64,000 nt of DNA from Apostichopus japonicus (lineage: Eukaryota > Echinodermata > Holothuroidea > Aspidochirotida > Stichopodidae), in NCBI RefSeq assembly GCF_037975245.1, contig NC_092573.1, positions 19,374,265 through 19,438,264 of the forward strand, in the 5' to 3' direction. Shown in pieces: positions 3,878-60,900 of the stretch (positions are counted from its first letter, which is position 1; every line of letters starts with the position of its first letter). The notes beneath the pieces are model-generated. The model was given only the letters and a program-made list of their open reading frames with translations, was not told the origin of the DNA and ran no database searches. Position numbers and translations under genes: made by a program.

Positions 3878-6690
3878 CTGTAAAATGTAATAAATACAGA
3901 AGGACAGTAGCAGCAACTGGTTAATAGGATAGCTTAATTATTTGGTTGCAAAAGTAGCATTTTTCAATATTTAATGCAGCTTAAAGCATCCCTCCATCAC
4001 TACATCTAAAATATATAGCCTATCACATCCGTTATCAAAGAGGTGCACATTCCATATTCAAGACAGAGAAATCTGAAACATTAAAATCACAATTCAAAGT
4101 AATTCAAGATGCTATGTCCAGTGTCTAACTTCATTTTTGCATGAACCTGTGTACGATACATATCCAAACAATGGACAAGGAAGTGAAATAACGTTAATTC
4201 TACAAGAAATTAGTCCATCCTGGAAAGCAGGATCGTACTTCAGTAGGCCTTACATGACTTACCAATAACAGAAGCCTACTGAATTAAGTTCAACTCATAT
4301 AGTATGGCGGTATCGCATAGTATCTACCGTCGTGAAATTGGTACCCACAGTTAAGCTTAGAGGACTTATACTACAATGACGTTTAATGTAAATGTCACGG
4401 CAATTCATGCAATAATTGTCCTTGTTGTAAAAATATGAAAAACTAATTTTCAAATTTAAGACCCTTATGAAAATACCTCTCGATGCAGGGAAGATATTCG
4501 GTTCAAGAAATGCTTTATTTTAGTGCGGTATTGACAACTTTTGTCATCAAGTTCCACGTCCCATTTAACGTCGGTTGGATTTGTTTTCACCCAGCTGTGA
4601 TGAAGTTGTGTTGTGATTCAACCAAGGATTCAACGCGTTATTCATTCCATAATTGAAAACAAATTACTGGGGAAGAATTTACAAGGTTAGGGCAGGAGGG
4701 GGGGGGGGGGCAGGGTAGGCGGTAACAATTGGATTTTTTTGTTCCGCAAGATCTTTTTCACAGGAATGTGTCTGACCGATATTAAACAGGGTCGAACACA
4801 CTCTGGGCAGAAAAAGTAGGACTTGAAATGAGGCCAAAAAACGTACTGGGCACTGGATAGACAGGTGATGCGGCCATTGAAGTCACCGATTGGGCCTTAC
4901 ATATTTCTGAGGGAAGGATCAAGGATTTCATAAAGAAGTGAGTGGCCATGGGATATTCAAGGCCAACTCGTCATGTACGGGCGGGGATCTTGAAGAATCA
5001 TCTCCTGAATAAAGTATAGTACGGCTATTAAATACTTTTCATTCGTTTATGATAAGCTGAAAAGGGTACACCATTCCCTACCCCTCCTGTGTCCAACTCG
5101 AGAAGGGGAGTAATCCCCCTGTATTATTTTGGCGTTCATTAACTTTTTCCGAATTGAAAAGAAGAGATGACATATCACTGAAGAATTTATGTGTCTATAC
5201 TTCCACGTGACTAACACGCATCCAATCTACAATCTGTTTACTTTGGGACGACGTTACACAGTTTTCCAATTACACAACCATGGATCGTGCTCAGTCTTGG
5301 CCCCACGTTTTGGGTCAACGAACATCACTTGAAAGTGTAAATGGTTGATTGATTGATTTATGAATTGAGTTAATAACATTATTCAAACAATAAACAAGAT
5401 AAATGCGTCGAATTTAACCGGCGCTTGCAAAGATATGATGCTGGTGTTGTTGATTCTGTCAGTCGTGTACATATTTATTGCTATTTACTCTTGCAACGGT
5501 TATTAAAGAAATACATAAATGGTTCGACTAAAATCTAAGACTGTTATATTTTATGATAAAAGGCGGTTGTTTCTATCATTTACCTTCACTTTAATTCAAC
5601 GCATTCTACGTCTTCAACAGCTGTCATAATTTACATTGAAGATTTTCGCTGAACAAATCAACCTTCAGGTAATTCCGTTCATTCTTGCTTTCTTTCTTTT
5701 TTCTTTCTAGTCTTCTTTAACTTTATACAATTTCGTTATAACTTCTATAGGCTTACCGCTACATAATTTTTTTTCCGCCATCTTATAGCTTCAGAATGTA
5801 ACTAACTAGCAACTCCCAACACCCCCGTACCTTCTTATACTCTGTGATAAACTTACGAAATTAACTTCACAATTTTTTCCATTGTTCCTTTCTCTCTGTT
5901 ATAGTGAGAAGAGGGAGATGGGCGAAGGAGAGGGATAGGGAGGGGGGGGGGGGGGTTGTAACGGGCTCCAATTGTTTTCTCTCTTCTTTCTTATGTCGAC
6001 TTTAAATGGTTTCGTAGATGTTGGTCGTATGTGGAAAATTATCGTCAGTTTCGGATTAAGAATTGAAACATCTCTATTTTGCAAGAAAGTTTCAGTTACG
6101 CAATATAGGCTATATCGATATTATGTCAGATATTTATCGAACATATTATGAGGTGATATAATGTCCAATACGAATCGTAATCAACCGTCATCTAAACAAG
6201 CCATCATTTTCTACCCCCCCCCCCGCCCCACCCCCGTTCATATGTGTCTGTACGCTTAATATGTGCGCTGTTACGGCGGTAAACCCAGAGCCGTATATAC
6301 GTAGAGTTCCTTTATACTATAAACGAACTTTAGGTGAACCATACTATTTCTGTACTGCGGTATACCCTAGACGTTTATTAATAGATGGACGTTAAGCAAT
6401 GTATTCAAACATAAATATTGACTTCATTATAGAGCGGTTGCGAATTCTAAAAATTCAAATGTGTCAAATGCAACTATATAAACCAACGATTCCGAATAAG
6501 GTTTGATGATGAGGAAGGGGCACCTCCACACTACCCCTACCCCATTCTCGTGAGCCCTGAAGCGGTGCTTGTACTTGAGAAATTTGTGTTGGTTGGCAAT
6601 ATTTCTGAGCAGTTTATCCATTTGTTTGTGTGAAAGTTATCAGGATAACGGTGTCATTTCCTTTCAACTGATCTCCTTCTTTCCTTGCCT
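3878..6690. other. non-coding stretch; one possible extra exon
   Basis: Mostly AT-rich DNA with poly(G/C) runs near 4699-4710, 5941-5955 and 6214-6231. On the minus strand, 4478 to about 4610 is open in one frame (it includes VELDDKSCQYRTKIKHF) and ends at a GT donor. Its phase joins the 3814-3877 exon only in a different frame, which would then stop at once, so I leave it unassigned. Nothing else is supported. Confidence 0.3.
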
Positions 6691-7600
6691 TACGTAGAGA
6701 TGACTTGTTAGGTAGATGATGAGTAGATGTGCCATATTGTTTTTGGTTCCCATCTCATGAATATTAATGAGTGGCCAAGTGCTTACCATTAAATTCTTAA
6801 AAAGTCAATATCTCTGCAGCTGCATGTGGTCCGATTTAGTTTATACTTAATATGGCGGGGTAACTACACATACTGTACATGTTCTTTGCAACAACAAATT
6901 TTACCTCATTAATATTCATGATGGGTGGGGCTTTATGGGAAATTGTTAAAAACAGCTTGAAAACGGCATGATATCTCAACGACCACAAGTTGAATCAATG
7001 TCGCACTTAGTAGGTAGATGCCCTTTGATGAGTAAATTGTTTTTTGTGTCCCATACTGGAATATTCATGAATTGACAGGGCTTAACGTAAAATTTGGTTC
7101 ATGCTAGTATGGTGATGTTGGTACAGAATAAGCATATTTCCATATCATTAATATTCATCAAATTGCAAGAAATGGCTTTTAAACACAGGACAAGAACCAA
7201 AGTTCCATGATTTCATCTTTGACAGATTAGGTTTGTCACACTACACTCAAACAATCAACCGTGTTGTTTTGGGGGGTGCATATCATGAATATAAATAAGT
7301 GAACATAAGATTCTTAATCAGATATCTTTGAAATAATATGTCTCATTACCTTTATGTTTATGTACTTGGTTAATACAATGTAAGTACAGTATTTACATGC
7401 TTATGAGATCATAAAATTTGACCTCATTAATATTCATGCATGTATCTGTTTCTATACGATGTCACTAAATATACTTTAGCAATATGAAAACTGATTCCGG
7501 GTACCTTCCTTCATATGTTGCCGCGTCAGTCAACACATAATTCCTCTTCCTTTTTTTGTGCACAAGTTCATGAATATTAACATGAATGGCTCAACACACT
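6690..7600. repeat. diverged ~290-bp tandem repeat with recurring ATTAATATTCAT motifs
   Basis: About three diverged units carry seven copies of a near-palindromic motif related to CATGAATATTAATGA. They lie at 6756-6770, 6904-6920, 7059-7073, 7145-7159, 7283-7298, 7422-7438 and 7568-7580, with alternating orientation and mostly 140-150 bp spacing. Flanking words recur too: GTAGGTAGATG before the first and third sites, and a TACTGTACATG-like block before the second and sixth. It lies 1.2-2 kb upstream of the cystine-knot gene, but any regulatory role is speculation. Confidence 0.6.
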
Positions 7601-8814: not shown

Positions 8815-9435
8815 ATGTTTTCCTTTTCAACTTTGAACAAATTGGCGTTGCTTTGTGTTGTCCTGGTGACGATATTGGAATTCAGTCTAGCTCGCCGGAT
8901 AGGGCATCAGAGACCATTTCTTGAAGAACAAATTAGCAGATCAAAACATTTTACAATGGCGTCTAATGAAAGAGAGAGGGTCCTAAACCTCATCAGAGGC
9001 CGTTTTCGATCTCGATGTCCATCTTTTGACCTCGATCCGGAAGGTGGCTGTCAGGTGACGGTCATGGATTTAACGGTGTCTTTACCAGGTTGCCAAGCAA
9101 CTCACATAAACTTTACCTTCTGCGCGGGAAACTGTCGCAGTGTTGCGGTGAATTCTATACCGGAGTGGTTCGGCGATGATTGTGCTATTCTTCGAAACGG
9201 ATTCAACTCGACCAGTTCATGTCAATCGATTGGGGAAGAAGAACAGACTATAACGTTTAATTGTGAGGAAGGAGAACGGACTCGTCGACTGAGGAGGGTC
9301 ACAGATTGTCGCTGTACTGGAAGGACAATAACTCAACCTGCAATGATGAAAGTAACACCGACGACGGAAAGTGAATTTAGACCATCTGTAAATCTCACTG
9401 CGGGAGAAAATGACGCCGATTTGGCGGAATTGTAA
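8815..9435 (+). CDS. secreted cystine-knot protein (glycoprotein-hormone-alpha2/DAN-like)
   Basis: A 206-residue protein. Residues 1-26 form a signal peptide (LALLCVVLVTILEFSLA). The mature chain has ten cysteines at 68, 79, 93, 103, 107, 123, 136, 150, 165 and 167, including the C-x-G-x-C knot motif (CAGNC, 103-107) and a closing C-x-C (CRC, 165-167). N-glycosylation sequons lie at N99, N131 and N193. Cysteine order and the conserved NST sequon between knot strands resemble glycoprotein hormone alpha2; bursicon and DAN/gremlin domains share the layout. It differs from GPA2 by an N-terminal extension, one cysteine where GPA2 has a CC pair, and a 39-residue tail. The exon starts at 8792 after a good splice acceptor, and the ATG at 8815 is the first in frame. 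AATAAA-type signals follow the stop near 9461 and 9545. Cystine-knot identity is fairly sure; the subfamily is not. Confidence 0.8.
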   Translation: MFSFSTLNKLALLCVVLVTILEFSLARRIGHQRPFLEEQISRSKHFTMASNERERVLNLIRGRFRSRCPSFDLDPEGGCQVTVMDLTVSLPGCQATHINFTFCAGNCRSVAVNSIPEWFGDDCAILRNGFNSTSSCQSIGEEEQTITFNCEEGERTRRLRRVTDCRCTGRTITQPAMMKVTPTTESEFRPSVNLTAGENDADLAEL

Positions 9436-16543: not shown

Positions 16544-17364
16544 TTTCGATCTGCTTTCCTGTTTGCTAGTATTTTTCTCATGTTGATATGAATCATTTTT
16601 AGAACAGGAAAGAAATGTTAATTACTTGCTTATTAACGTATAACGTTCGTTTCGTAGAAACAGTCTTAGTTGGATTAATTCCATTGTTATTTGAGAAAAC
16701 AATAAAAACGGAATTTTATACGCTCCTCTATTATTCATATTCTAGGGTATCCGAATCTGATTATAATACTTTTCTAATATACACTGTGTATACGTAGGCT
16801 ACAATGTTAGGATTTTGATACATCTGTTGGTGCAAAGTTCCAGCAAAAAATTGACAGACAATTTCCATACTATTTGCTTGGTCCAATTATCGATTACCGT
16901 CAACCGTGAACATTCGATTCCTCAGTATTTCGTCGCCCATGCATGCAGACACTTTTCATATCATCCATTTAATACTATAGTATTAATACTATATTATGTA
17001 AAGAGCATATTGCAAATTTTCAAATTATTATTGAATTTATTCAAAGTTTAAAATGAAACTGGTTAGTCAAACCAACGAGCAACATTTTATCCATTTTTTA
17101 GAATCGACAAATTTATCAAAATCAACTCCAAAAAGGCTGCTTTAGAAAAAGCCTGCATGAACCGATAAATATGGTTCCTATACTGGAGACCTAATGGATC
17201 ACTATGTATATTAAATATGGTTGCTGAATTGAAAGTCTTTTTCAATTTTTTCCTATGCATGTGTTAAACCTTAATTTTGTATAATTATGAAGTAAATTAA
17301 AGTAAAATATTAACTGCAATGCCCGCAGCAGCTATAAAATAATTCTTTCATTTGATATTCGCAG

Positions 17365-18203
17365 GAAGGAAAATAAAAGAGAAAGTTGTGCTTGCGTTCA
17401 AGACACCACGCGTGCACAGAGTCAGATCGGTGAGATTGATCTTAGCCAAACGCCCAGGAGAATTTATCGGAATTTGTAACCATCTCAGAATTTCTACATT
17501 GACTAATAAACAATCGGTTTATTCAAATGCATCAGTTTGTCTCCGTTCCAAACTGATTTCTAGCAACTACAGTATGTTTGATATAACCAGGCTCTCGCGC
17601 AACTGGTCTACGGATGACGTGCCGCTTAATCTCACAATTATCATCCACGGTGGGTGTAGGAAACGTGACCCTACTTGGATACCAGACGTAGCATATCAAC
17701 TACAGCCGGGACAAGAAGACAGCCCCGTCCTGCTCTTCTATGATGATGAAAAGCAGCCATTTTGGAAAAATGCTACCTCTCTGTTGAGATCGATGTCTGA
17801 CCTGAGAGAACGCACTACCAGATCTCCGAGGGGGAGACCGGCTACCAGACGACCCATTCCTTGTACACTGCGACCATGGGAGATGCATGTCGATGACATC
17901 GGTTGGGGAGATTTTGTTTATCGACCGACTTCTTTTCAAGTCAATTTTTGCCGCGGAAAATGTCGCTTGCTTATGAACAATGATATCAATTCAAGCACAC
18001 ACTCAATTGTAAAAAGTATGTATATCTCGCGAAATATGCGTAATACACGAGGGAACAGGAGACCTTTAAACCCGCCTAGACTCACGTGGTCGGCTTGCGT
18101 ACCTGACAAGTTTAGAAAAGTTGTAGTGTTGTCTGAAAATGAAGGGAAATTCGAGTTTGTAGAATGGGATGACATTGAAGCGACATCGTGCAGATGTGCT
18201 TGA
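17365..18203 (+). CDS. TGF-beta superfamily ligand, coding exon 2 (prodomain and mature cystine-knot domain)
   Basis: This exon follows the acceptor TTCGCAG and continues exon 1 in phase. It encodes the rest of the prodomain, a basic processing region (RGRPATRR) and a 113-residue C-terminal domain starting at its first knot cysteine (about residue 268 of 380). The domain has the family landmarks: DIGWGDFVYRP, CRGKC as the C-x-G-x-C, then SACVP and a final CRCA. It has six cysteines, not seven: where most ligands have CC before VP, this one has AC, so the inter-chain disulphide cysteine is missing, as known for GDF9, BMP15 and GDF3. The loop between the third knot cysteine and SACVP is long (45 residues) and rich in Arg and Asn. 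The stop is TGA at 18201. Family assignment is strong; subfamily is not. Confidence 0.85.
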
Positions 18204-30217: not shown

Positions 30218-33163
30218 TCAGTAACTAGCTATTATTTCCTTACAAAACCACTTCTTAAAGGATGTGACTGACTTTTTACTCTTTAAATCGTTCATTAGAA
30301 GATTCCATGTTTTTGCTGCACGGTTTTGTAGGCTTAAAGTTCCAATGGTGGTATTGTAGAGATTATAGTGGGCATGATTAGCATGCCTCGTGTTATGATT
30401 ATGTACATCTCTGTTACTGGTTAAAAAATTGTCAAAGGCAGCTGGTAGTAATCCATTCCAGGTCTTGTAGGCAAATAATGCAAGCTTAACTTTAATGAGA
30501 TCGTGCAATTTTAGTAAATTGAGTTTCTTAAATAGGGGACTGGTGTGCTCACGTCGGGCTGAGTGTGTTATGTGGCGAATGGCTGCCTTTTGGAGTATTA
30601 TAAGATTGTTAAGGTTGGTGTTGTATGTACCAGACCAAATAATGGAACAATAAGTGAGATGCGGGACAACCAGGGTCTGGTATAGTGTTCTGAGTATGTT
30701 TTCCGATAGATAATATTTCAACTTAGATAATATGCCAACATTCCGTGCAATTATACTGCAAATAGTTGAAATATGGTTGCGCCAGCTAAGTTTACAATCA
30801 ATATTTACACCTAAAAACTTAGTAGTATAAACTTGCTTAATTATTTTACCATCCATACATATATCTTTATTCCAAATAAGTGTATTACGAGTATTAAAGA
30901 CAATGTAATTACTTTTTTGTACATTTAGTGATAATTTGTTGGCTGAAAACCAATTACAGAATTTATTTAATTCATTTGACACGTTGGAAGATAATGTGAT
31001 TATGTCGTCGCTCTCGAAGAAAATACTGGTGTCATCAGCAAAGAGAATGATTTTGGCTAGTTTGGAGACATGACAAATATCGTTAATATATAGAATAAAT
31101 AACAAAGGACCTAAGACTGAACCCTGTGGAACGCCGCAACGAATTTTAGCAAGATCGGATCTAGAGTTTTTATACAAGGTATACTGATATCTGTTCGAAA
31201 TATAGCTTTCAAGCCAGTTGAGAGTAGTTCCTCTAATGCCGTATGAAAATAATTTATTGATAAGGATGGTATGATCGATCATGTCAAACGCCTTCGAAAG
31301 GTCTAGGAATACACCAATGCAATTTTTGCCATTATTCAGACTAGTATGTAAACTGTTAAGTGCATCTGCCAAAGCCAGTTCAGTAGAATGTTCGGGTCGA
31401 AAGCCGTACTGTTCTTTACATAGAATATTATATTGGTTAAGAAAATTAAAAATGCGATTGAACATAAGTCGTTCTATGATTTTAGAAAAACAGGAAAGCA
31501 ATGAAATCGGTCGATAATTCTCATATACATTTGAATCTCCCTTTTTATAGATTGGTATAACCTTTGCCGTTTTAAGTTTATCTGGGAATACGCCAGTGTT
31601 AAATGATAAATTACATATATGGGTCAAAGGCTTAGCAATGAAAGGAATAACATATTTTATAATACCAGGTTTGAAATCATCATATCCTGCTGCTTTATTG
31701 GGTTTCAAGTTGGAAGTTGCGATTTTAATTAGTTCTTCTTCAGTGACTGGGAATGTGAATATTGAATGACTATTGTTATCACAGATGGTTTCATGTGATT
31801 TACCTTTGTTTTTTATTTTACTAGCAAGCGATGGTCCAAGATTTACATAGAAATTGTTGAAGTTATTCGCAATGATATTTTCATCACTGGTTTCTTGGTC
31901 ACCATCTTTGAAAACAGCAGGATATGATGATTCTTTACGGTTATTGTGCAACATTTCATTAATAGTACGCCATGTATGATTTGTGTTATTTCTGCTCTCA
32001 TTAAATTTATTGTCAAAATAGAGCTTTTTCGAAAGTCTGATTACTTGATTAAGCTTATTACGATACGTTGTATACATAGACTTGTACATAACTGTAGGAG
32101 ACTTTAACTGACGTCTGTAAAGTTTGTGCTTCCTTTTAATGGAAGTCAAAATACCATTCGTAATCCATGGGTGTTTCTTTCTAAAACGCTGTTTATAATT
32201 GATTTGGCGGATAGGAAAACAATTATTATAAGTTGAACTGAGATAATTAAAAAAGGTATTATAAGCAGAATTGACATCATTTTCGTTTAAAACATTATCC
32301 CAATATGTGTCCCTTATTTCAGAAGTAAACCGCTTTACGTTGTTAGTATTGTAATTACGTCTATAGATGGTGTTGTTAGATATGATTTTCTTCCCTACCA
32401 CTTTTAGAAATATCGGAAAATGGTCACTTATATCAGTGATGAGAACCCCTGAAGTAATCGTAGAATCATCGTTTGTAATGATGTTATCTATCAGGCTTGT
32501 AGTAATGCTACTAATACGAGTTGGGACAGTTATTGTAGGGATGAATCCGTTCGAATAGAGAATATTTAAAAACGTAGTTGATTTGATTGCATTCGTTAAA
32601 TCAATATTATAATCTCCCATTATGTAGGTTTTACAGTTTTTATTCGAAATGATATTGAAAATATTTTCCAGATTAACATTAAACTCATCTAAAGAACCAT
32701 TAGGTGGTCTGTAGACTATGCCGATAAGAAATTTATCTTTTGAATTTATGTCAGTAGCCTCTATAAAGAGAGATTCTATAGAATTATTAAAAATTGATAG
32801 GTCGGGTCTACAAATAAAACTTATATCTTTAAATACAAATAGACAGACTCCACCGCCCCGTTTATTGTTACGATGTTTTTCAACAAGTTTGTAATTATCC
32901 AATTTTATGAGGGGAGAAAAATTATCATTGAACCAGGTTTCTGTGAATCCAATTACCGTAAAGTCATTATTTAATACAGAAATGAAAGTGTTAACATCGT
33001 CAAACTTATTGTTTAGGCTACGACTGTTGTGGTGGTACAGTGATATACCGTAATGAGGGGGCAGATTGTTATAAGAGTCTATGTTATGGTACTTACACGA
33101 GACATTATTTTCCCTGAGGCCGTTAATATCGTTGAGTATAGGTGACGCCATTAGTGATAACAT
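30218..33163 (-). CDS. ORF2: endonuclease-reverse transcriptase of a non-LTR retrotransposon
   Basis: A 981-residue polyprotein that nicks target DNA and copies the element RNA into it. The N-terminal third is an exonuclease/endonuclease/phosphatase-fold domain with FTETW, YRPP, GDYN and SDHFPIF motifs in order. The reverse transcriptase follows: KVIPIYKKGD, NYRPISLL, GFRP, LDLSKAFD, GVPQGSVLGPLLF and the catalytic FADDT. The C-terminus has the NTRHA and AAKTWN region typical of CR1/L2-type ORF2; no RNase H domain is seen. There are no internal stops or frameshifts. The clade within the CR1/L2/Jockey group needs a tree. Confidence 0.93.
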   Translation of the reverse strand: MLSLMASPILNDINGLRENNVSCKYHNIDSYNNLPPHYGISLYHHNSRSLNNKFDDVNTFISVLNNDFTVIGFTETWFNDNFSPLIKLDNYKLVEKHRNNKRGGGVCLFVFKDISFICRPDLSIFNNSIESLFIEATDINSKDKFLIGIVYRPPNGSLDEFNVNLENIFNIISNKNCKTYIMGDYNIDLTNAIKSTTFLNILYSNGFIPTITVPTRISSITTSLIDNIITNDDSTITSGVLITDISDHFPIFLKVVGKKIISNNTIYRRNYNTNNVKRFTSEIRDTYWDNVLNENDVNSAYNTFFNYLSSTYNNCFPIRQINYKQRFRKKHPWITNGILTSIKRKHKLYRRQLKSPTVMYKSMYTTYRNKLNQVIRLSKKLYFDNKFNESRNNTNHTWRTINEMLHNNRKESSYPAVFKDGDQETSDENIIANNFNNFYVNLGPSLASKIKNKGKSHETICDNNSHSIFTFPVTEEELIKIATSNLKPNKAAGYDDFKPGIIKYVIPFIAKPLTHICNLSFNTGVFPDKLKTAKVIPIYKKGDSNVYENYRPISLLSCFSKIIERLMFNRIFNFLNQYNILCKEQYGFRPEHSTELALADALNSLHTSLNNGKNCIGVFLDLSKAFDMIDHTILINKLFSYGIRGTTLNWLESYISNRYQYTLYKNSRSDLAKIRCGVPQGSVLGPLLFILYINDICHVSKLAKIILFADDTSIFFESDDIITLSSNVSNELNKFCNWFSANKLSLNVQKSNYIVFNTRNTLIWNKDICMDGKIIKQVYTTKFLGVNIDCKLSWRNHISTICSIIARNVGILSKLKYYLSENILRTLYQTLVVPHLTYCSIIWSGTYNTNLNNLIILQKAAIRHITHSARREHTSPLFKKLNLLKLHDLIKVKLALFAYKTWNGLLPAAFDNFLTSNRDVHNHNTRHANHAHYNLYNTTIGTLSLQNRAAKTWNLLMNDLKSKKSVTSFKKWFCKEIIASY

Positions 33164-33192
33164 TAAAATTGGTAAGTAAGAGAATATAAATC

Positions 33193-34266
33193 TTATTTTG
33201 GTTCTGTTCGTTCCCTTTCCCTTGTGTGATATCGCCTGGTGGTTGTGACGTTGGGCCTGGGGATGTTCTTCCTCTGTTGCTGGTTTGTGCTATTCTTTTT
33301 TACGACTATCCAGTCTGCTCCATCATTCGATGATAGGGTTCGCTTTATCTTTGCGCCGACTTGTTGATTTAATTCGCTCTCCGTTATCGGCTGAACTTTA
33401 GTCTGCCGACTTCTCTCTTTCAGGTCACTAATACATTCCTCATCTTTATCTTTTGTTAATACCCCAGTATTCGCAGGTCTCGATTCACTTTCCTGTGCTT
33501 CATAAGTCGTTGGTTTCTCTGTGTCCTCATAAGTCGTTGGCTTGTCAATTGGGTTCTCGATTTCTGTGTCCTCATCCATTGTTTCCGTGTCGTCTTTTTC
33601 ATCGCAGTGGTAACTCGTGTGGCCCAGCTTGTTGCATTTGTAACAGAGGATTTCAGGGCAGCGGTTCCTTGAATGCCCTTGTTGACCGCACTCTCTACAC
33701 GTGTATTGTGGGCACTCTCGCATTATGTGATCATCTGATAAGCAGAGATTACACACCCGTGATTGTCCACTGTGCTTTAATCTTAAGTGAATTCCCTCTA
33801 TAGTGATTGCGTACGGTAGAGACTTTACACTGTTTGGTAATTCGAGTCTAACGTATCTGATGCCATTTTCTATGTCGGGGTAGTCTTCGTAATATTTACG
33901 TACCCATGGGGATCTTAGTCTGCATCCGTATTCTTCCAGTTTTCCGGAGATTTCATCATCGGTAATGTACATTGGGACTCCAAAAACACTTACGGTTATT
34001 ATGGTCTTGGTCACTCCCATGATGTCACATACCTCATTCCCTATTTTTAATCCAGTTTCTTGGATAAGTTCTGCATCTTCTTTGTTTTTTACCGTTAAGA
34101 TCCACTGTCCTTGAGTCTTAACACACCCGAGAATATTTTTCTTTCCAATGTCGTTGGCCAAAGACTTCAATATGTCCGTAGATTTAAAATTGGCATCAAC
34201 AAGCTTCACACTGTTGGTTTTCAACACGAAACTGTTTGGCGGCATTTTCGCGGATCCGGTACTCAT
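33193..34266 (-). CDS. ORF1: zinc-knuckle nucleic-acid-binding protein of the retrotransposon
   Basis: A 357-residue Gag-like protein expected to bind element RNA. The middle has an RRM-like segment (ITVSVFGVPMYITDDE onward). It is followed by three C-x2-C-x4-H-x4-C zinc knuckles in a row: CNLCLSDDHIMREC, CRECGQQGHSRNRC and CYKCNKLGHTSYHC. After that comes an acidic and basic low-complexity tail. The ATG at 34266 is the first in frame. Its stop lies 29 bp ahead of ORF2, so ORF2 would need reinitiation or its own mechanism. Confidence 0.9.
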   Translation of the reverse strand: MSTGSAKMPPNSFVLKTNSVKLVDANFKSTDILKSLANDIGKKNILGCVKTQGQWILTVKNKEDAELIQETGLKIGNEVCDIMGVTKTIITVSVFGVPMYITDDEISGKLEEYGCRLRSPWVRKYYEDYPDIENGIRYVRLELPNSVKSLPYAITIEGIHLRLKHSGQSRVCNLCLSDDHIMRECPQYTCRECGQQGHSRNRCPEILCYKCNKLGHTSYHCDEKDDTETMDEDTEIENPIDKPTTYEDTEKPTTYEAQESESRPANTGVLTKDKDEECISDLKERSRQTKVQPITESELNQQVGAKIKRTLSSNDGADWIVVKKNSTNQQQRKNIPRPNVTTTRRYHTRERERTEPK

Positions 34267-34487: not shown

Positions 34488-34558
34488 GCCTATATATGCC
34501 AATATATATGCCAATATATATGCCAATATATATGCCAATATATATGCCAATATATATG

Positions 34559-34635
<77 letters not shown>

Positions 34636-34670
34636 ATATATATCTATATATATATATATATATATATAGA
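34488..34670. repeat. 12-bp TATATATGCCAA tandem repeat and (TA)n
   Basis: About six copies of a TATATATGCCAA unit (34488-34565) run into a long TA-dinucleotide tract to 34670. They form the left border of the palindrome region. Confidence 0.85.
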
Positions 34671-34764
34671 GTAGGTAGGCGTCTATCTAGGCGCAGAGTG
34701 CTCTATGTCCATTGGACAGAGCGTAATATATGTTGATACTAGATGAGACTAGTGGAACACTAGT

Positions 34765-34810
34765 AGTTGTTACTCGGAGTTTCACGCGTTATAGCGATCT
34801 TCAGACAACT
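34765..34810 (-). ncRNA. candidate hammerhead ribozyme, mirror copy (left arm)
   Basis: Because the palindrome is perfect, the minus strand of the left arm encodes the same hammerhead-like fold. Transcripts from either strand would carry one copy of the motif and one complementary copy, which would compete by pairing into the long hairpin. Confidence 0.6.
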
Positions 34811-34815
34811 GGTCC

Positions 34816-34861
34816 AGTTGTCTGAAGATCGCTATAACGCGTGAAACTCCGAGTAACAACT
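34816..34861 (+). ncRNA. candidate type-I hammerhead ribozyme (right arm)
   Basis: All invariant core parts appear in order. Stem I is AGTTGT (34816-34821) pairing with ACAACT (34856-34861). The core CTGAAGA (34822-34828) fits CUGANGA. Stem II is CGC/GCG with loop TATAAC, over a U-U mismatch at its base. GAA (34843-34845) follows, then a short stem III (ACTC/GAGT with a one-base loop, 34846-34854). The predicted cleavage site is after A34855. Tiny stem III and open stem I are typical of hammerheads in Penelope-like elements and retrozymes. Cleavage activity is inferred only; the U-U mismatch may weaken it. Confidence 0.65.
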
Positions 34862-34890
34862 ACTAGTGTTCCACTAGTCTCATCTAGTAT

Positions 34891-34981
<91 letters not shown>

Positions 34982-35004
34982 TATATATTCATATAGATAT
35001 ATAT

Positions 35005-42499: not shown

Positions 42500-43741
42500 T
42501 TAAAAATATTTGCGTCCGACGGAGGCAAGCAAGTTTAAGAGTTTGCGTCCATGGTTAGAACGTTGCGTCCCGGACGCAGGTGGATTTACAACTCTTCCAA
42601 GAAACAAAATGGAACCAAATGATGCATCTGAGATGCAAAATATGAATGGTCGGTCGGCTTTAAATGCTGGAATATCTTCAATGGATGAGTTGCCACTACA
42701 ACCTAATCTGGGGATTGATTGAGTAGATGCAGCTGCTTCCGTTCCTTCCTCCTTGAACTCAACAAAAGCCTTATGAATGACATTTGACACATAAAGGTCT
42801 TCAGATTCAGCAATTCCAGCAAGGTCTGCCTTATTAACATCGAATACATCTGACATTCCCATTAATGACAAATGATCATTCAAATCAAAACTCTCTTCCA
42901 GTTTGAAACGAGGGAAGCTGACACGGACTCTCTGCTCCCTGCTGCGTTTACCCAAAGACGTTATAACCTGTATGTTTATCTTGGATTCAAGGTTACTAAG
43001 GTAAATGGACGGGTCTGGTAAAATGATTACCATGCGCAGAGTATTACCAACGTACGGTAGGGATAAAACCTGACATTTCAGTTGTTTATCTTCAAAATAA
43101 TCAAAGTAACCTATCTGGTACATCATAGCTACTGGAATGCTTTCACCGGAGGAAGCATGGAATGGCTGAAAAGAAGTTCTCTTTGGATTGAACTGTGACA
43201 ACCAGTTACCTTTAAAGTATATAGCATTAACCAATACAAGCACTGTCAAAGAGTCCAAGACTCCTGGCGCTATTAAGTCTTTGATCTTGTTATTGGTCTG
43301 CTCTGAAACCCAGCTGTTGATCTCTGTTCTGGCATTCTTTGCATCCCTCTGGAAGTCAATAGGCATCAGCTCGGCTTGGTAATGAACTTTGGTCATCTTC
43401 AGAAAGGATTCTAGAAAGGTATAATCCTTCTGACCGTATAACCGATTGGCAGACTTTAGAGTGAACAAGGCATTGGGAGATAAAATCAAATCATCCAACT
43501 CCTGAAAAGCACTGTGTACATCATTACCTTTAAACTCGTTGATCCTTAGCACCTGTGACATTTGCTTGGCTGTGTTGCCACTAGCTCCGGCAAACGTCAT
43601 GGTAAGAGCTGCCATAATGCTATAAGGTGAGAAAAAGAGGTTGTGTGATGGATCCTTCCCGATGCGTCCATACAGCTCCCATGAGAATTCATTTAAGGAG
43701 TTGGCCAATTGGCTTGCTTCACTGCTACTTGAAGTTGACAT
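42500..43741 (-). CDS. intracellular-type (clade B-like) serpin
   Basis: A 413-residue serine or cysteine protease inhibitor in one coding exon. It starts without a signal peptide (MSTSSSSEASQLANSLNEFS), as in ov-serpins. Family landmarks in order: FFSPYSIMAALTM, NAIYFKGNW, VSFPRFKLEE and DRPFIFCI. The reactive-loop hinge EEGTEAAAST has the small residues needed for loop insertion, so it is probably inhibitory. Counting from the hinge glycine as P15 puts P1 near the RLGC segment, but the loop is a few residues longer than in antitrypsin, so the exact bond is uncertain. A basic 23-residue extension (GTQRSNHGRKLL onward) follows the usual end. A minus-strand splice acceptor CCTCTGCAG ends at 43755, just before the 5' leader. 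Confidence 0.93.
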   Translation of the reverse strand: MSTSSSSEASQLANSLNEFSWELYGRIGKDPSHNLFFSPYSIMAALTMTFAGASGNTAKQMSQVLRINEFKGNDVHSAFQELDDLILSPNALFTLKSANRLYGQKDYTFLESFLKMTKVHYQAELMPIDFQRDAKNARTEINSWVSEQTNNKIKDLIAPGVLDSLTVLVLVNAIYFKGNWLSQFNPKRTSFQPFHASSGESIPVAMMYQIGYFDYFEDKQLKCQVLSLPYVGNTLRMVIILPDPSIYLSNLESKINIQVITSLGKRSREQRVRVSFPRFKLEESFDLNDHLSLMGMSDVFDVNKADLAGIAESEDLYVSNVIHKAFVEFKEEGTEAAASTQSIPRLGCSGNSSIEDIPAFKADRPFIFCISDASFGSILFLGRVVNPPASGTQRSNHGRKLLNLLASVGRKYF

Positions 43742-54900: not shown

Positions 54901-57900
54901 CGTGGGCAAGTTGTAATTTCTGCGTCTCAAGTGGTTCTTACATAAATGTCAAATGAGTCAATAAAAGAGATGGAAAAAAGAGTCTAGTTTTGAAGTGTAC
55001 AATGGGGTTACCACCACTAGCATTTTATAACACAATTTAGCAGTTAAATATTGTTGTATTAATGTTGAATTTCCTCCATAAATCCGTCTGTAAATGTCTG
55101 TTTAATGCATAAACATGAAAATTGTCAAATGTCGGCACAGCAAGTGGTTAGTCATAGCCTTTACTTTCTGGTTTATTTTCAAGTAATTCGGTCTTTGATA
55201 AATGCTGTGTCCAAAATTGTCAGGGCAACGAAAGTTTCTCTTTCGAATGTAACTTAATTAGTGCTACCTAAAAGATGTTCATTTGGTGAACGAAACTGCA
55301 TTTTTTGTACTATTTTTAACGTACATTTCTCCCCACATTTGATCAAATTCTAAATTGCCGGTATCATTTGGATAACACGACACGACGTCGTCGCTCCAAT
55401 TATTCTCAAAGCAACATTTTGTGTTGAAATTGATACATTTCGCGTAATATGTAATAACATCCACAAATCTGTGTTTATTTAAAATAAGTCACATCTTATT
55501 TGGGAAGAAAATTTATATTTATATGAAACATTGTCTAGGCATCAAAAGCTTTAGAATTCTAGGCAATTTAATACTCCTTTATTTATATTCCTTGGTGGAA
55601 TGATCGTTGGTAAGAAATTATTCTCACTTTGTTTTCAAAATGTCTAGAAGAAGTGGCAGTTGGGTTGTTGGAGATGTTAAAAGTAACGAAATAGTCAAGC
55701 AAGTCGATTTAATCATGTCTAGTCTCCTTAGCACAAATCATTACCATGAGAGAGTTAAAATAAATGCAAACCATTTGTAATTACCTCTCCTAATTGGATC
55801 CAAAATAGTTGCGTTAACGACTTTGCATCCGCCTACTTGTCGTATGTTCGTAACCTGCAAATGATACACTAAACGAAGAACAACAAAAGACATCGAAATA
55901 TTATGAAAAACATCTTGGCCATGTTTTGAATATACTGCGGGATAAACAAACACCATGGTACTGTCATAATTGTCAATATTTTGTATAGTCAAAACGCTAG
56001 TAATTGCTAGTCAAACTTGTTGCATAATCACTACAAGCATCGGACTAAAGGATAAACTTCAAACAGAATTTTAGAATCGATGGTTGAATATATAAGTCGC
56101 ATATTCTGAAGACTCATCCAGCAGTAATGGATCTGAGACCATTTCTTCTTTGGGAAATTAAGTCGTATATTATGATGACTCAACACTTATAGCAGTAATG
56201 GATCTGAGACCATATCTACTTGACAAATTAAGTCGTACATTTGGATACCATTCTAAGCTATTATTTGAGTCATCAGTGTTCCAGAGTTACAGGGACATGG
56301 AGGCCGCCAGTACACTCTCCCTCATAAAGACTTAAAAGACCATTCCAGCCAAACTGCAAGCATTCATCAAGTAAAAGAAATTAAAGTGTGCTAAACTTGT
56401 TTTACTTGTATATAAACAACCATGTGTGGTAAGAATTGTACGAACATTGAAGCGTTCCAATGACATTCCTTACAATCCCAGCACAGGCCTCGCGAGAGTT
56501 GTGACAGTAGAATACCAAAATATCACAAAAGGGACTTTTCGCGAACCGCAAACGAGCAAAATGGCCGTTTCGACCAAACCAACGGGCCATATCTCGAAAA
56601 CGACATGGAGTATGACTTAACTTTTTTGTATGTGTTCACATACTTAATCATTCTGATGAAGTTAAATCAAAATCTGAGAGGGTCACCTGGGGACCACTGG
56701 TTGATTTGACATAGAATGACCTCTACAGCAATAATGGATCTGAGACCATATCTCCTTGACAAATAAAGTCGTGTATTCTGAAGACTCAACCACTAGCAGT
56801 AGTGGATCTGAGACCATATCTTCTTTGACAAATTAGATCGGTTATTCTGATGACTCAACCACTATAGCAGTAACGCATCTGAGATCATATTACCTTGACA
56901 AATTAAGTCGTACATTTTGATGACTCAACCACTAGCATTAGTGGATATGAGACCATATCTCTTTGACAAATTAAGTCGTATATTCTATTGACTCAACCAA
57001 TATAGCTGTAATGGATCTGAGACCATATTACCTTGACAATTAAGTCGTATATTCAGATGACTCAACCACTAGCAGTAATGGATTTGGGACCATATCTCCT
57101 TGACAAATTATGTCGTATATGCTAATGACTCAACCACTACAGCAGTAATAGATCTGAGACCATATCTCCTTGACAAATTAAGTCGTACATTCTGATGACT
57201 CAACCACTAGCATTAGTGGATCTGAGACCATATCTCCTTGAGAAATTAAGTCGTATATTCTAATGACTCAACCACTATAGCAGTAATGGATCTGAGACCA
57301 TATTACCTGGACAAATTAAGTCGTACATTCTGATGACTCAACCACTAGCAGTAGTGGATCTGAGACCATCATTTCTTTGACAAATTAAGTCGTATATTCT
57401 GATGACTCAACCAATATAGCTGTAATGGATCTGAGACCATATTACCTTGACAATTAAGTCGTATATTCAGATGACTCAACCACTAGCAATAATGGATCTG
57501 AGATCATATCTTCTTGACAAATTAGGTCGTATACTCTAATGACTCAACCACTATAACAGAAATGGATCTGAGACCATATCTTCTTGAGAAATTAGGTCGT
57601 ACATTCTGATGACTCAACCACTATAACAGAAATGGATCTGAGACCATATCTCCTTGAGAAATTAGGTCGTATATGCTAATGATTCAACCACTACAGCAGT
57701 AATGGATCTGAGACCATATCTCCTTAACAAATTAAGTCGTATATTCTGATGACTCAACCACTTTAACAGTTATGGATCTGAGACCATATCTTCTTTGACA
57801 AATTAGGTCGTATACACTGATGACTCAACCACTGTAGCAGTAATGGATATGAGACCATATTACCTTGACAAATTAAGTCGTGCATTCTGATGACTCAACC

Positions 57901-60900
57901 ACTATAACAGAAATGGATCTGAGACCATATCTTCTTGAGGAATTAGGTCGTATATGCTAATGACTCAACCACTTCAGCAGTAATGGATCTGAGACAATAT
58001 CTCCTTGACAAATTAAGTCGTATATTCTGATGACTCAACCACTTTAACAGTAATGGATCTGAGACAATATCTCCTTGACAAATTAAGTCGTATATTCTGA
58101 TGACTCAACCACTTTAACAGTTATGGATCTGAGACCATATCTTCTTTGACAAATTAGGTCGTATACACTGATGACTCAACCACTGTAGCAGTAATGGATC
58201 TGAGACCATATTACCTTGACAAATTAAGTCGTATATTCTGATGACTCAACCACTATAACAGAAATGGATCTGAGACCATATCTTCTTGAGAAATTAGGTC
58301 GTATATTCTGATGACTCAACCACTATATCAGTAATGGATCTGAGACCATATTACCTTGACAAATTAAGTCGTTCATTCTGATGACTCAACCACTATAACA
58401 GAAATGGATCTGAGACCATATCTCCTTGAGAAATTAGGTCGTATATGCTAATGACTCAACCACTATAGCAGTAATGGATCTGAGACCATATTACCTTGAC
58501 AAATTAAGTCGTACATTCTGATGACTCAACCACTATAACAGAAATGGATCTGAGACCATATCTCCTTGAGAAATTAGGTCGTATATGCTAATGACTCAAC
58601 CACTATAGCAGTAATGGATCTGAGACCATATTACCTTGACAAATTAAGTCGTACATTCTGATGACTCAACCACTATAACAGAAATGGATCTGAGACCATA
58701 TCTCCTTGAGAAATTAGGTCGTATATGCTAATGACTCAACCACTACAGCAGTAATGGATCTGAGACCATATCTTCTTTGACAAATTAGGTCGTATACACT
58801 GATGGCTCAACCAATTTAGCAGTAATGGATCTGGGACCAAATATCCTTGACAAATTAAGTCGTACATTCTGATGACTCAACCACTATAACAGTTATGGAT
58901 ATGAGACCATATTTTCTTTGAAAAATCAGGTCGTATACACTGATGACTCAACCAATTTAGCAGTAATGGATCTGAGACCATATCTCCTTGACAAATTAAG
59001 TCGTATATTCTAATGACTCAACCACTACAGCAGTAATGGATCTGAGACCATATTACATTGACAAATTAAGTCGTTCATTCTGATGTCTCAACCACTAGCA
59101 GTAGTGGATCTGAGACCATCATTTCTTTGACAAATTAAGTCGTATATTCTAATGACTCAACCAATATAGCTGTAATGGATCTGAGACCATATTACCTTGA
59201 CAATTAAGTCGTATATTCAGATGACTCAACCACTAGCAATAATGGATCTGAGACCATATCTCCTTGACAAATTAGGTCGTACATTCTGATGACTCAACCA
59301 CTATAACAGGAATGGATCTGAGACCATATCTTCTTGACAAATTAGGTCGTACATTCTGATGACTCAACCACTATAACAGTAATGGATCTGAGACCATATC
59401 TTCTTTGACAAATTAGGTCGTATACACTGATGACTCAACCAATTTAGCAGTAATGGATCTGGGACCATGTATCCTTGACAAATTAAGTCGTACATTCTGA
59501 TGACTCAACCACTGTAACAGTAATGGATCTGAGACCATATCTTCTTTGACAAATTAGGTCGTATACACTGATGACTCAACCAATTTAGCAGTAATGGATC
59601 TGAGACCATATCTCCTTGACAAATTAAGTCGTACATTCTGATGACTCAACCACTATAACAGTAATGGATCTGAGACCATATCTTCTTTGACAAATTCGGT
59701 CGTGTATTCTGATGACTGAACCACTATAGCGGGTAATGTATCTGAAACCATATCTCCTTGGCAATTTAAGTCCTATATTCTGATGACTCAACCACTATAG
59801 CAGTGATGTATCCTCGACCATATCTTCTTGACAAATTACAGTTTTTAAGCAGGTTATTTTAAGTTCATAAAAGGTCTGTTTTTTCTTTCAGCTTATTCAC
59901 GTTTGAAAGAAAAAAGAACATCTTTTATGTGTCCTAGACTCTGCCACTTTGACTGATGTTGAAAGCGGCATTTCTCAGAAATTAAATTTCTAATGTTGAA
60001 CCAAATAGTCTTGCCTTTAAGACAGGCTTACAGCATATCAATATTAAATTTGTGCCCGACAGTCATCCTTTTTCTCATGGATGATTGCGCTGCTTAAGCT
60101 GCCATTTTTTGTAAAATCATAAATAAAGGTTGTATATATGAGAATAGCACACGCAGGGAGATCTGGTTACCAATTGTCACTAGTATAAATATTGTGGATT
60201 CCGTTATGAAATAACAATATTGAAATACAAAAAAGTAAGCAAAAACCAATGTGTCCAGACAACAAAGAGTTTTTCAATGAATGACGAACCTCTTTGTATC
60301 TAGTAGTAAAAGGATAACAACAATGCATGACTCGTGATACTAATGAGGTTCAATAACTGTTATACTGTAACGAAAATTATATTGCTTGTTTATTTCATCT
60401 CTTACTCGTTGCCTTTGGTATAACTTAATAGTGCTTGGAACACTGGCTTTCAGCTAAATTGGTGTTCTGTTGTTTTGCCGTTATGGTCGGGTTATGCAAA
60501 TCCGCTGAATGCTGACTTCAGTGGTACATTTGTTTACGTATATTTTTTTTAAGTACATCTGTTTTTATACCAGTAGAACACTGGGTCACATTGAGCTGTA
60601 TTTGAACACGGCAGTCCGTTAGTTTCATAATGCTCAGTAAGTCTTGCGAGTTGCTCGTTTATTCACCAAATTACTCATGTAATTACTTAATCTTCTGACT
60701 ACCATTTACGTGTGAGTGCTTGCTCGCTAACTATTAGTTTATTGTGAGTAGTTGCTTGCTCAATCAGTCGTTACAGTTACCCGTGAGAAGTAGTTACTCA
60801 TCAAAATTTACCTGTGAGTATCTTTTCGCTCACTATGAGGTGCTAGTGAGAAGTTGCTCACTTGCTCAATGTCATACTCATGAGAAGTTGCCCACTGTCT

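Follow-up and report, generated by a model that had tools for sequence, protein, structure and literature searches.

Palindromic leader copies of a Penelope-like element in Apostichopus japonicus, their hammerhead-like motif and a possible two-primer origin

The palindrome and its surroundings

The window, that is, the whole analyzed stretch of 64,000 nucleotides from Apostichopus japonicus, harbors host coding stretches for a DAN domain, a TGF-beta domain and, in a single ORF, a serpin, as well as a 70-bp tandem satellite of approximately 45 copies (table 1). It also carries a LINE, the 5' end of which lies close to a (TA)n tract, and a perfect 12-bp array (TATATATGCCAA) adjoins the same tract. 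Within the (TA)n tract we observed a palindrome composed of two 87-bp arms, which are perfect reverse complements of each other around the central base T34813. With spacers below 60, the 30 top-ranked perfect inverted repeats of the window all formed part of it. Comparison with related loci of the same genome, numbered below with the prefix L, indicated that the arms match the leader of a Penelope-like element (PLE), and the palindrome is probably a leader-only insertion that carries the first part of a PLE RNA twice, in inverted orientation.

Table 1. Features of the window and positions of the tail hairpin in three PLE families
Feature	Position	Strand	Remark
DAN domain, host coding stretch	8815-9435
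TGF-beta domain, host coding stretch	17352-18203
LINE	30218-34266	-	ORFs: zinc-knuckle, 357 aa; endonuclease + RT, 981 aa
Perfect 12-bp array	34491-34569
(TA)n target flank, LONG side	34562-34668
LONG leader copy (cDNA), +144 to +1, tail and hammerhead arm	34667-34810	-	98.6% match to 144-nt L012 leader
Tail hairpin between SHORT and LONG start sites (GCTCTG...CATAGAGC)	34691-34724	-	outer stem common to L103, L083
Left palindrome arm	34726-34812		87 bp
Hammerhead-like motif	34765-34810	-	predicted cleavage after A at 34771; coordinates by palindrome symmetry
Head-to-head junction GGTCC	34811-34815		both cDNAs extend 2-3 bases upstream of +1
Right palindrome arm	34814-34900		87 bp
SHORT leader copy (cDNA), +1 to +85	34816-34900	+	100% match to leader
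Hammerhead-like motif	34816-34861	+	predicted cleavage after A34855
(TA)n target flank, SHORT side	34895-35004
Serpin, host coding stretch	42500-43741		single ORF
70-bp tandem satellite	56719-59838		~45 copies
Tail hairpin, L103	824-857	-
Tail hairpin, L083	437-465	+

Hammerhead-like motif in the arms

Both strands of the palindrome exhibit the layout of a hammerhead, a motif that in the PLE is located just 3' of the stop codon. On the + strand, stem I is formed by AGUUGU (34816-34821) and ACAACU (34856-34861), the core by CUGAAGA (34822-34828) and GAA (34843-34845), stem II by CGC (34830-34832) and GCG (34839-34841), and stem III by 3 bp closed by A34846-U34854. Taking as yardstick the type I consensus, as also used in an earlier sequence-only reading of this DNA, we found the CUGANGA and GAA core, the A15.1-U16.1 pair, H17 and all three stems, of which stem I is the open one. 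In stem II, the pair at 10.1-11.1, which comes first, is not Watson-Crick, being a U-U mismatch (34829/34842) here and in 5/5 aligned sequences. Since natural hammerheads with U10.1-U11.1 have been reported, and this mismatch is described as better tolerated than any other (PMC3088659), it lowers the standing of the motif as a member of the class without excluding it.

The sequence-only reading had described this layout on both strands (CUGANGA, GAA, the A-U pair closing stem III, a 6-bp stem I and a 3-4-bp stem III), and the description holds, with the U-U in stem II as a feature it did not mention. Its proposal of a ribozyme on either transcript strand fared less well, as a transcript of the whole palindrome is predicted to fold into a single long hairpin (-158 kcal/mol), so that a putative ribozyme is plausible only in one-arm transcripts. 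Even for one arm, the hammerhead is predicted at -4.3 kcal/mol versus a minimum of -6.5, with a stem III pair probability of approximately 0.01. The Rfam check that it had proposed yielded no hammerhead match, either in the window region, where one arm gave no match of any kind at E<=10, or in 20 related loci at the gathering threshold. This negative result is weak, because Rfam also missed the diverged motif (CUGAUGA) of L067. The full palindrome produced weak Rfam matches of miRNA-type, viral-UTR and similar kinds, which were set aside as attributable to the hairpin or to the TA repeat.

Diverged families, encountered by chance in L067, L083, L085 and L103, enabled a comparison of the motif. 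The PLE fragments of L067 and L083 share 46% and 49% protein identity, respectively, with that of L012 over approximately 90 residues, and in both a hammerhead layout can be read from the sequence soon after the stop codon, with bulges or mismatches needed in stem II; L085 presents a third variant. Across the five sequences of the alignment, variation within the core is limited to N7 (A/U), position H17 holds either A or U, stem III does not vary, and stem I exhibits one U-A to C-G change in addition to G-U variants. In this alignment, 95% of the cells pair, compared with 25-42% for slid structures, and the covariation does not exceed that of shuffled alignments (reached by 78/500). When both strands of 64 Mb of simulated sequence were scanned, a descriptor of equal quality was never matched and looser ones were matched once and five times, an estimate that is generous because the descriptor was composed after the motif had been seen.

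The resemblance might also be due to chance, or to a decayed motif without cleavage in vivo. The missing Rfam match, the U-U at 10.1/11.1, the weak predicted fold and a covariation that is not significant by itself, consisting of one double change, would all suit such a reading. So would the account of a PLE from Anolis, in which hammerhead mutations left insertion in vitro unaffected and no RNA reads end at the cleavage site (PMC11167929). The hammerhead of that PLE is reported to have cleaved only with protein present (PMC11167929). We nevertheless consider chance or decay quite unlikely, in view of the same place and layout in PLE fragments at 46-49% protein identity, the confinement of core changes to N7 and H17, the U-A to C-G change in stem I, the natural occurrence and tolerance of the U10.1-U11.1 mismatch (PMC3088659) and the equal failure of Rfam on L067. 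The arm motif is described here as hammerhead-like and as a putative ribozyme.

Parent element and its genome-wide copies

The locus L012 contains an intact ORF of 797 aa that ends a few bases before the leader and harbors the motifs YRDDG (361), CPLNGNC (584), IYKAEV (596) and YIG (610), which we take to be RT-like and endonuclease-like; Penelope-like elements have a single ORF with an RT and a C-terminal GIY-YIG endonuclease. The protein produced no match against Pfam and PDB and nothing above the cut-off against NCBIfam, where ribosomal protein L23 was the sole match, distant and well below that cut-off (E 0.008, 16 vs 144 bits); AF2 models were poor, with a pLDDT of 35 for the single-sequence prediction of the whole ORF and of 56 for its 131-aa endonuclease part. 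Two leader copies (4640-4783 and 2039-2182) lie in the same orientation around the ORF, the second 5' of it as in a PLE pLTR, and an inverted copy is located at 7033-7117. On the basis of pLTRs repeated around the ORF, an optional 3' tail (LONG, to +144, versus SHORT, to +85) and AT-rich targets, the arm-bearing element is read as a PLE. In L012, a LONG cDNA of ~2.85 kb is joined to a SHORT one of ~2.29 kb with 12 mismatches in 2286 positions; in L010, LONG is paired with SHORT 1.2 kb apart. These observations support the suggestion of the sequence-only reading that the palindrome could be an inverted Penelope-like junction, as the arms are read as PLE leaders and some single-arm copies continue into an ORF with YRDDG and CPLNGNC-IYKAEV-YIG; the perfect palindrome with 87-bp arms was likewise recovered by the inverted-repeat scan of the window. 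Separately, SINEs that appear tRNA-like by eye (L010 1678-3123, L017 2921-3560) and a LINE (L018 1300-3132) share one insertion site in the PLE, CTTGAAGCTACCA, which lies immediately 5' of the leader; they apparently have this motif on both sides and possibly represent site-specific insertion into the PLE.

The search covered 671,581,487 bases (671.6 Mb) in 35 contigs. We found at least 61 arm matches (40 of 992 candidate places scored), 617 places carrying the 32-nt arm core with up to two mismatches and, by pattern search, at least 58 palindromic junctions, a lower bound because the pattern needs exact 15-mers and spacers of up to 30. The 50 listed places plus L009 make up the 51 junctions examined. 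Positions in the leader are counted from the A of AGTTGT (+1), the first base of hammerhead stem I. Leader copies mostly end outward at +85 (SHORT, ...CAACATATAT) or at +144 (LONG), the LONG tail thus comprising 59 nt that end in CTACTCTA. It carries a hairpin whose outer stem, GCTCT/AGAGC, is common to three PLE families and whose inner part differs, which makes it a candidate protein-binding or RT-start element. Both start sites end in TA and match the (TA)n target; such flanks were present at 35/46 LONG and 39/47 SHORT ends, compared with 245/10,000 random positions drawn from 20 of the same loci, insertions included, and (TC)n flanks at five LONG ends. In L044 (728-748) and L059 (701-721) copies end close to +21, where loop II of the hammerhead contains a TATA; these two ends suggest a third, rarely used start site that matches the (TA)n target.

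The two end types are combined in a regular manner. Among the 51 junctions, 41 were LONG/SHORT, one was LONG/LONG (L024) and none was SHORT/SHORT, while nine had a truncated or rearranged arm; 41 of the 42 fully classified palindromes thus have one LONG and one SHORT end (P = 1e-11 for at most one symmetric of 42, with ends independent and even). Of the remaining nine, L037, L054, L060 (also present as L067) and L061 appear LONG/SHORT by eye, L044 and L059 are those ending near +21, and L046, L047 and L048 stayed unclassified. A further 29 loci, being zero-mismatch core places among the matches listed, so that contigs after C15 and mismatched copies are under-sampled, comprised 17 inverted pairs, all LONG/SHORT (17/17), and 12 loci without an inverted partner. 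L065 and L066 agree in their centre and in both ends, and one may be a duplicate of the other. Solo LONG and solo SHORT copies also occur. Solo LONG copies outside PLE sequence were found in L070, L087, L088, L089 (5' flank masked), L098 and L103, where SHORT remnants below 13-15 nt would fall outside the listing; as they exist without a listed SHORT remnant, the SHORT copy can evidently also fail.

Perfect palindromes are a known type of artefact, arising from fold-back in sequencing or assembly. That the present ones arose in this manner is hardly credible, given at least 58 junctions genome-wide, the variation in centre and flanks among the 51 examined, outer ends that differ in 41/42 and an assembly that appears to be of HiFi/hifiasm origin (PMC10344927).

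Bases +23 and +40 distinguish three main subfamily haplotypes. The two arms share their haplotype in 44 of 45 readable pairs (6/51 were unreadable), L061 being the exception, whereas the number of discordant pairs averaged 25.9 over 20,000 permutations and was never below 14. This agreement indicates that the two arms are not independent draws from an RNA pool, and it fits equally one RNA molecule or two identical RNAs of one source copy.

The junctions themselves differ from locus to locus, with 38 distinct centre sequences in the 50 listed places and central spacers of 0 to 26 nt that peak at 4 nt (14/51). This diversity bears on the idea of a master palindromic element, MITE-like and non-autonomous, that has one tail, is amplified as a unit and varies in its centre via palindrome instability. 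Such a master would yield one LONG and one SHORT end in 41/42, and MITEs sitting in (TA)n are on record (PMC8449440). With so many distinct centres, however, and with solo LONG copies, solo SHORT copies and unequal pairs, as well as the same ends bounding longer PLE copies (L010, L012), we regard it as very unlikely.

Arm starts are concentrated at the 5' end of the leader, 43/100 at +1 and 21/100 one base before. The base preceding the 43 +1 starts is G in 33 and A in 10, a C being counted as the earlier start. Among 14 solo copies, 10 begin at +1, and a G precedes three of these (L068, L088, L098), with other bases in the rest. The G is as expected from cap copying, which suggests a capped RNA 5' end at +1, and may come in part from templated filler (TCAG, CTG). 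In the 41 LONG/SHORT palindromes, the further-in start at the centre belongs to LONG in 13, to SHORT in 12 and to both equally in 16, a few of these differences being point changes.

Additionally, 18 loci carry unequal pairs in which SHORT is complete or nearly so (starting at +6 in L096) and the inverted LONG stops early. L081 was left out as a likely duplicate of L080, since its end values equal those of L080 (the identity of 505/1231 between the two probably reflects a register shift), leaving 17. A clearly truncated SHORT beside a complete LONG was absent from the examined loci, where the SHORT of L082 and the second LONG of L073, each with an internal deletion, were not counted as truncated. 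Of the 17 LONG stops, 10 lie between +66 and +85, just where the SHORT copy starts (P = 2e-5 against a uniform distribution, for an interval picked after the data had been seen), a pile-up that would be the collision signature expected on one RNA.

Origin of the palindromes and known systems

The LONG/SHORT rule, the shared haplotypes and the LONG-truncated unequal pairs point to priming by both target strands on one RNA. We therefore consider it reasonably likely that the window palindrome is a leader-only PLE insertion in which both strands of the target primed one RNA, at the LONG and at the SHORT site, and the cDNAs were joined head to head. At a cut (TA)n microsatellite, the template would be a PLE transcript that begins approximately where hammerhead stem I begins. 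On this one RNA, one target strand would prime reverse transcription at the LONG site (+144) and its partner strand at the SHORT site (+85). Both cDNAs would extend as far as the RNA 5' end, except that LONG synthesis, which trails, would at times abort on meeting the SHORT hybrid. Error-prone repair with microhomology and filler would then join the cDNA ends head to head, giving a perfect palindrome of which one outer end is LONG and the other SHORT. A purified PLE is reported to cut and extend both DNA strands and to start internally at two sites (PMC11167929).

The same copies could instead be due to self-priming, in which the 3' end of an antisense template, or of the first cDNA, folds back and primes its own copying, the second arm being captured at ATATAT by (TA)n. 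Head-to-head PLE copies have been proposed to arise by self-priming on an antisense template (PMC3846280). Self-priming would account for arms that share a haplotype (44/45), and the peak of central spacers at 4 nt (14/51), which resembles hairpin loops, suits it and counts against the one-RNA model. A fold-back LONG copy, on the other hand, cannot hold leader bases that LONG never copied, and in the 17 unequal loci it is SHORT that extends closer to the RNA 5' end. Self-priming further predicts one direction for the further-in start, which is nearly balanced between the two arms, and it does not predict the LONG stops at +66 to +85. These observations speak against it as the general route, which we hold to be unlikely, although the 4-nt spacers leave room for it in some copies.

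Several other findings fit less readily with both-strand priming on one RNA. The two cDNAs of L012 differ at 12/2286 sites, more than one recent RNA copy gives unless they have mutated since; solo LONG copies, the LONG/LONG pair of L024, the discordant L061 and the ends near +21 in L044 and L059 depart from its products; and most of the 14 solo copies mentioned above have no extra G before +1. A fixed role for each strand is also at odds with the start site reported to be the same between strands in vitro (PMC11167929). We put forward only tentatively, and as a possibility that may well fail, that this PLE, and perhaps PLEs generally, normally integrates by priming from both strands on one RNA, each strand being assigned its own fixed site. 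If true, head-to-head inverted copies would be standard PLE products and the tail the footprint of a second primer. Near-identical leader-only insertions offer a genomic record of single integration events. Taken together, the pairing of unlike ends, the haplotype agreement between arms and the accumulation of LONG stops at the SHORT site render the one-RNA two-primer model directly testable.

In the twin priming of LINE-1, both target strands prime on one RNA and inverted copies result, the second primer annealing at varied internal places. The proposed route is alike in both-strand priming on one RNA and in its inverted copies, and differs in its two fixed start sites and in cDNAs that usually overlap completely.

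The Penelope elements of Adineta vaga share with the present copies the inverted head-to-head pLTRs, the palindromic inverted junctions and the AT-rich targets, and they have an optional tail of 31 bp on one inverted pLTR, compared with 59 nt here (PMC3846280). Unlike in that account, we observed two leaders without an ORF, dozens of palindromic copies and a (TA)n target. Its authors proposed self-priming on an antisense template and called for experiments to decide (PMC3846280), whereas the present data favor both-strand priming on one RNA. Poseidon PAc of Anolis is likewise similar in its pLTR hammerhead, in the cutting and extension of both strands and in AT-rich targets, and two internal RT start sites account for its tail (PMC11167929). 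As described there, its start sites exhibit no strand difference and no homology to the target, whereas here each insertion side uses one site in 41/42 and both sites end in TA, matching (TA)n; the steps after first-strand synthesis are left for validation in that report (PMC11167929). Animal retrozymes are also short non-coding retro-copies with a type I hammerhead, and they form tandem repeats that give rise to circular RNAs of ~170-400 nt (PMC7229834), whereas the present copies are inverted or solo, leader-only and PLE-derived. A head-to-tail array was absent from the loci examined, among which L012, L071 and L084 have same-orientation neighbours.

The statement in the sequence-only reading that no described element has this design was too strong, as PLE hammerheads, head-to-head pLTRs, palindromic junctions and a one-sided tail have been published (PMC11167929, PMC3846280). 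PLE hammerheads, tails and inverted pLTRs are accordingly known features, and what appears to be new, as far as literature searches show, is the occurrence of leader-only palindromes in number together with a quantitative rule of one LONG and one SHORT end on shared haplotypes.
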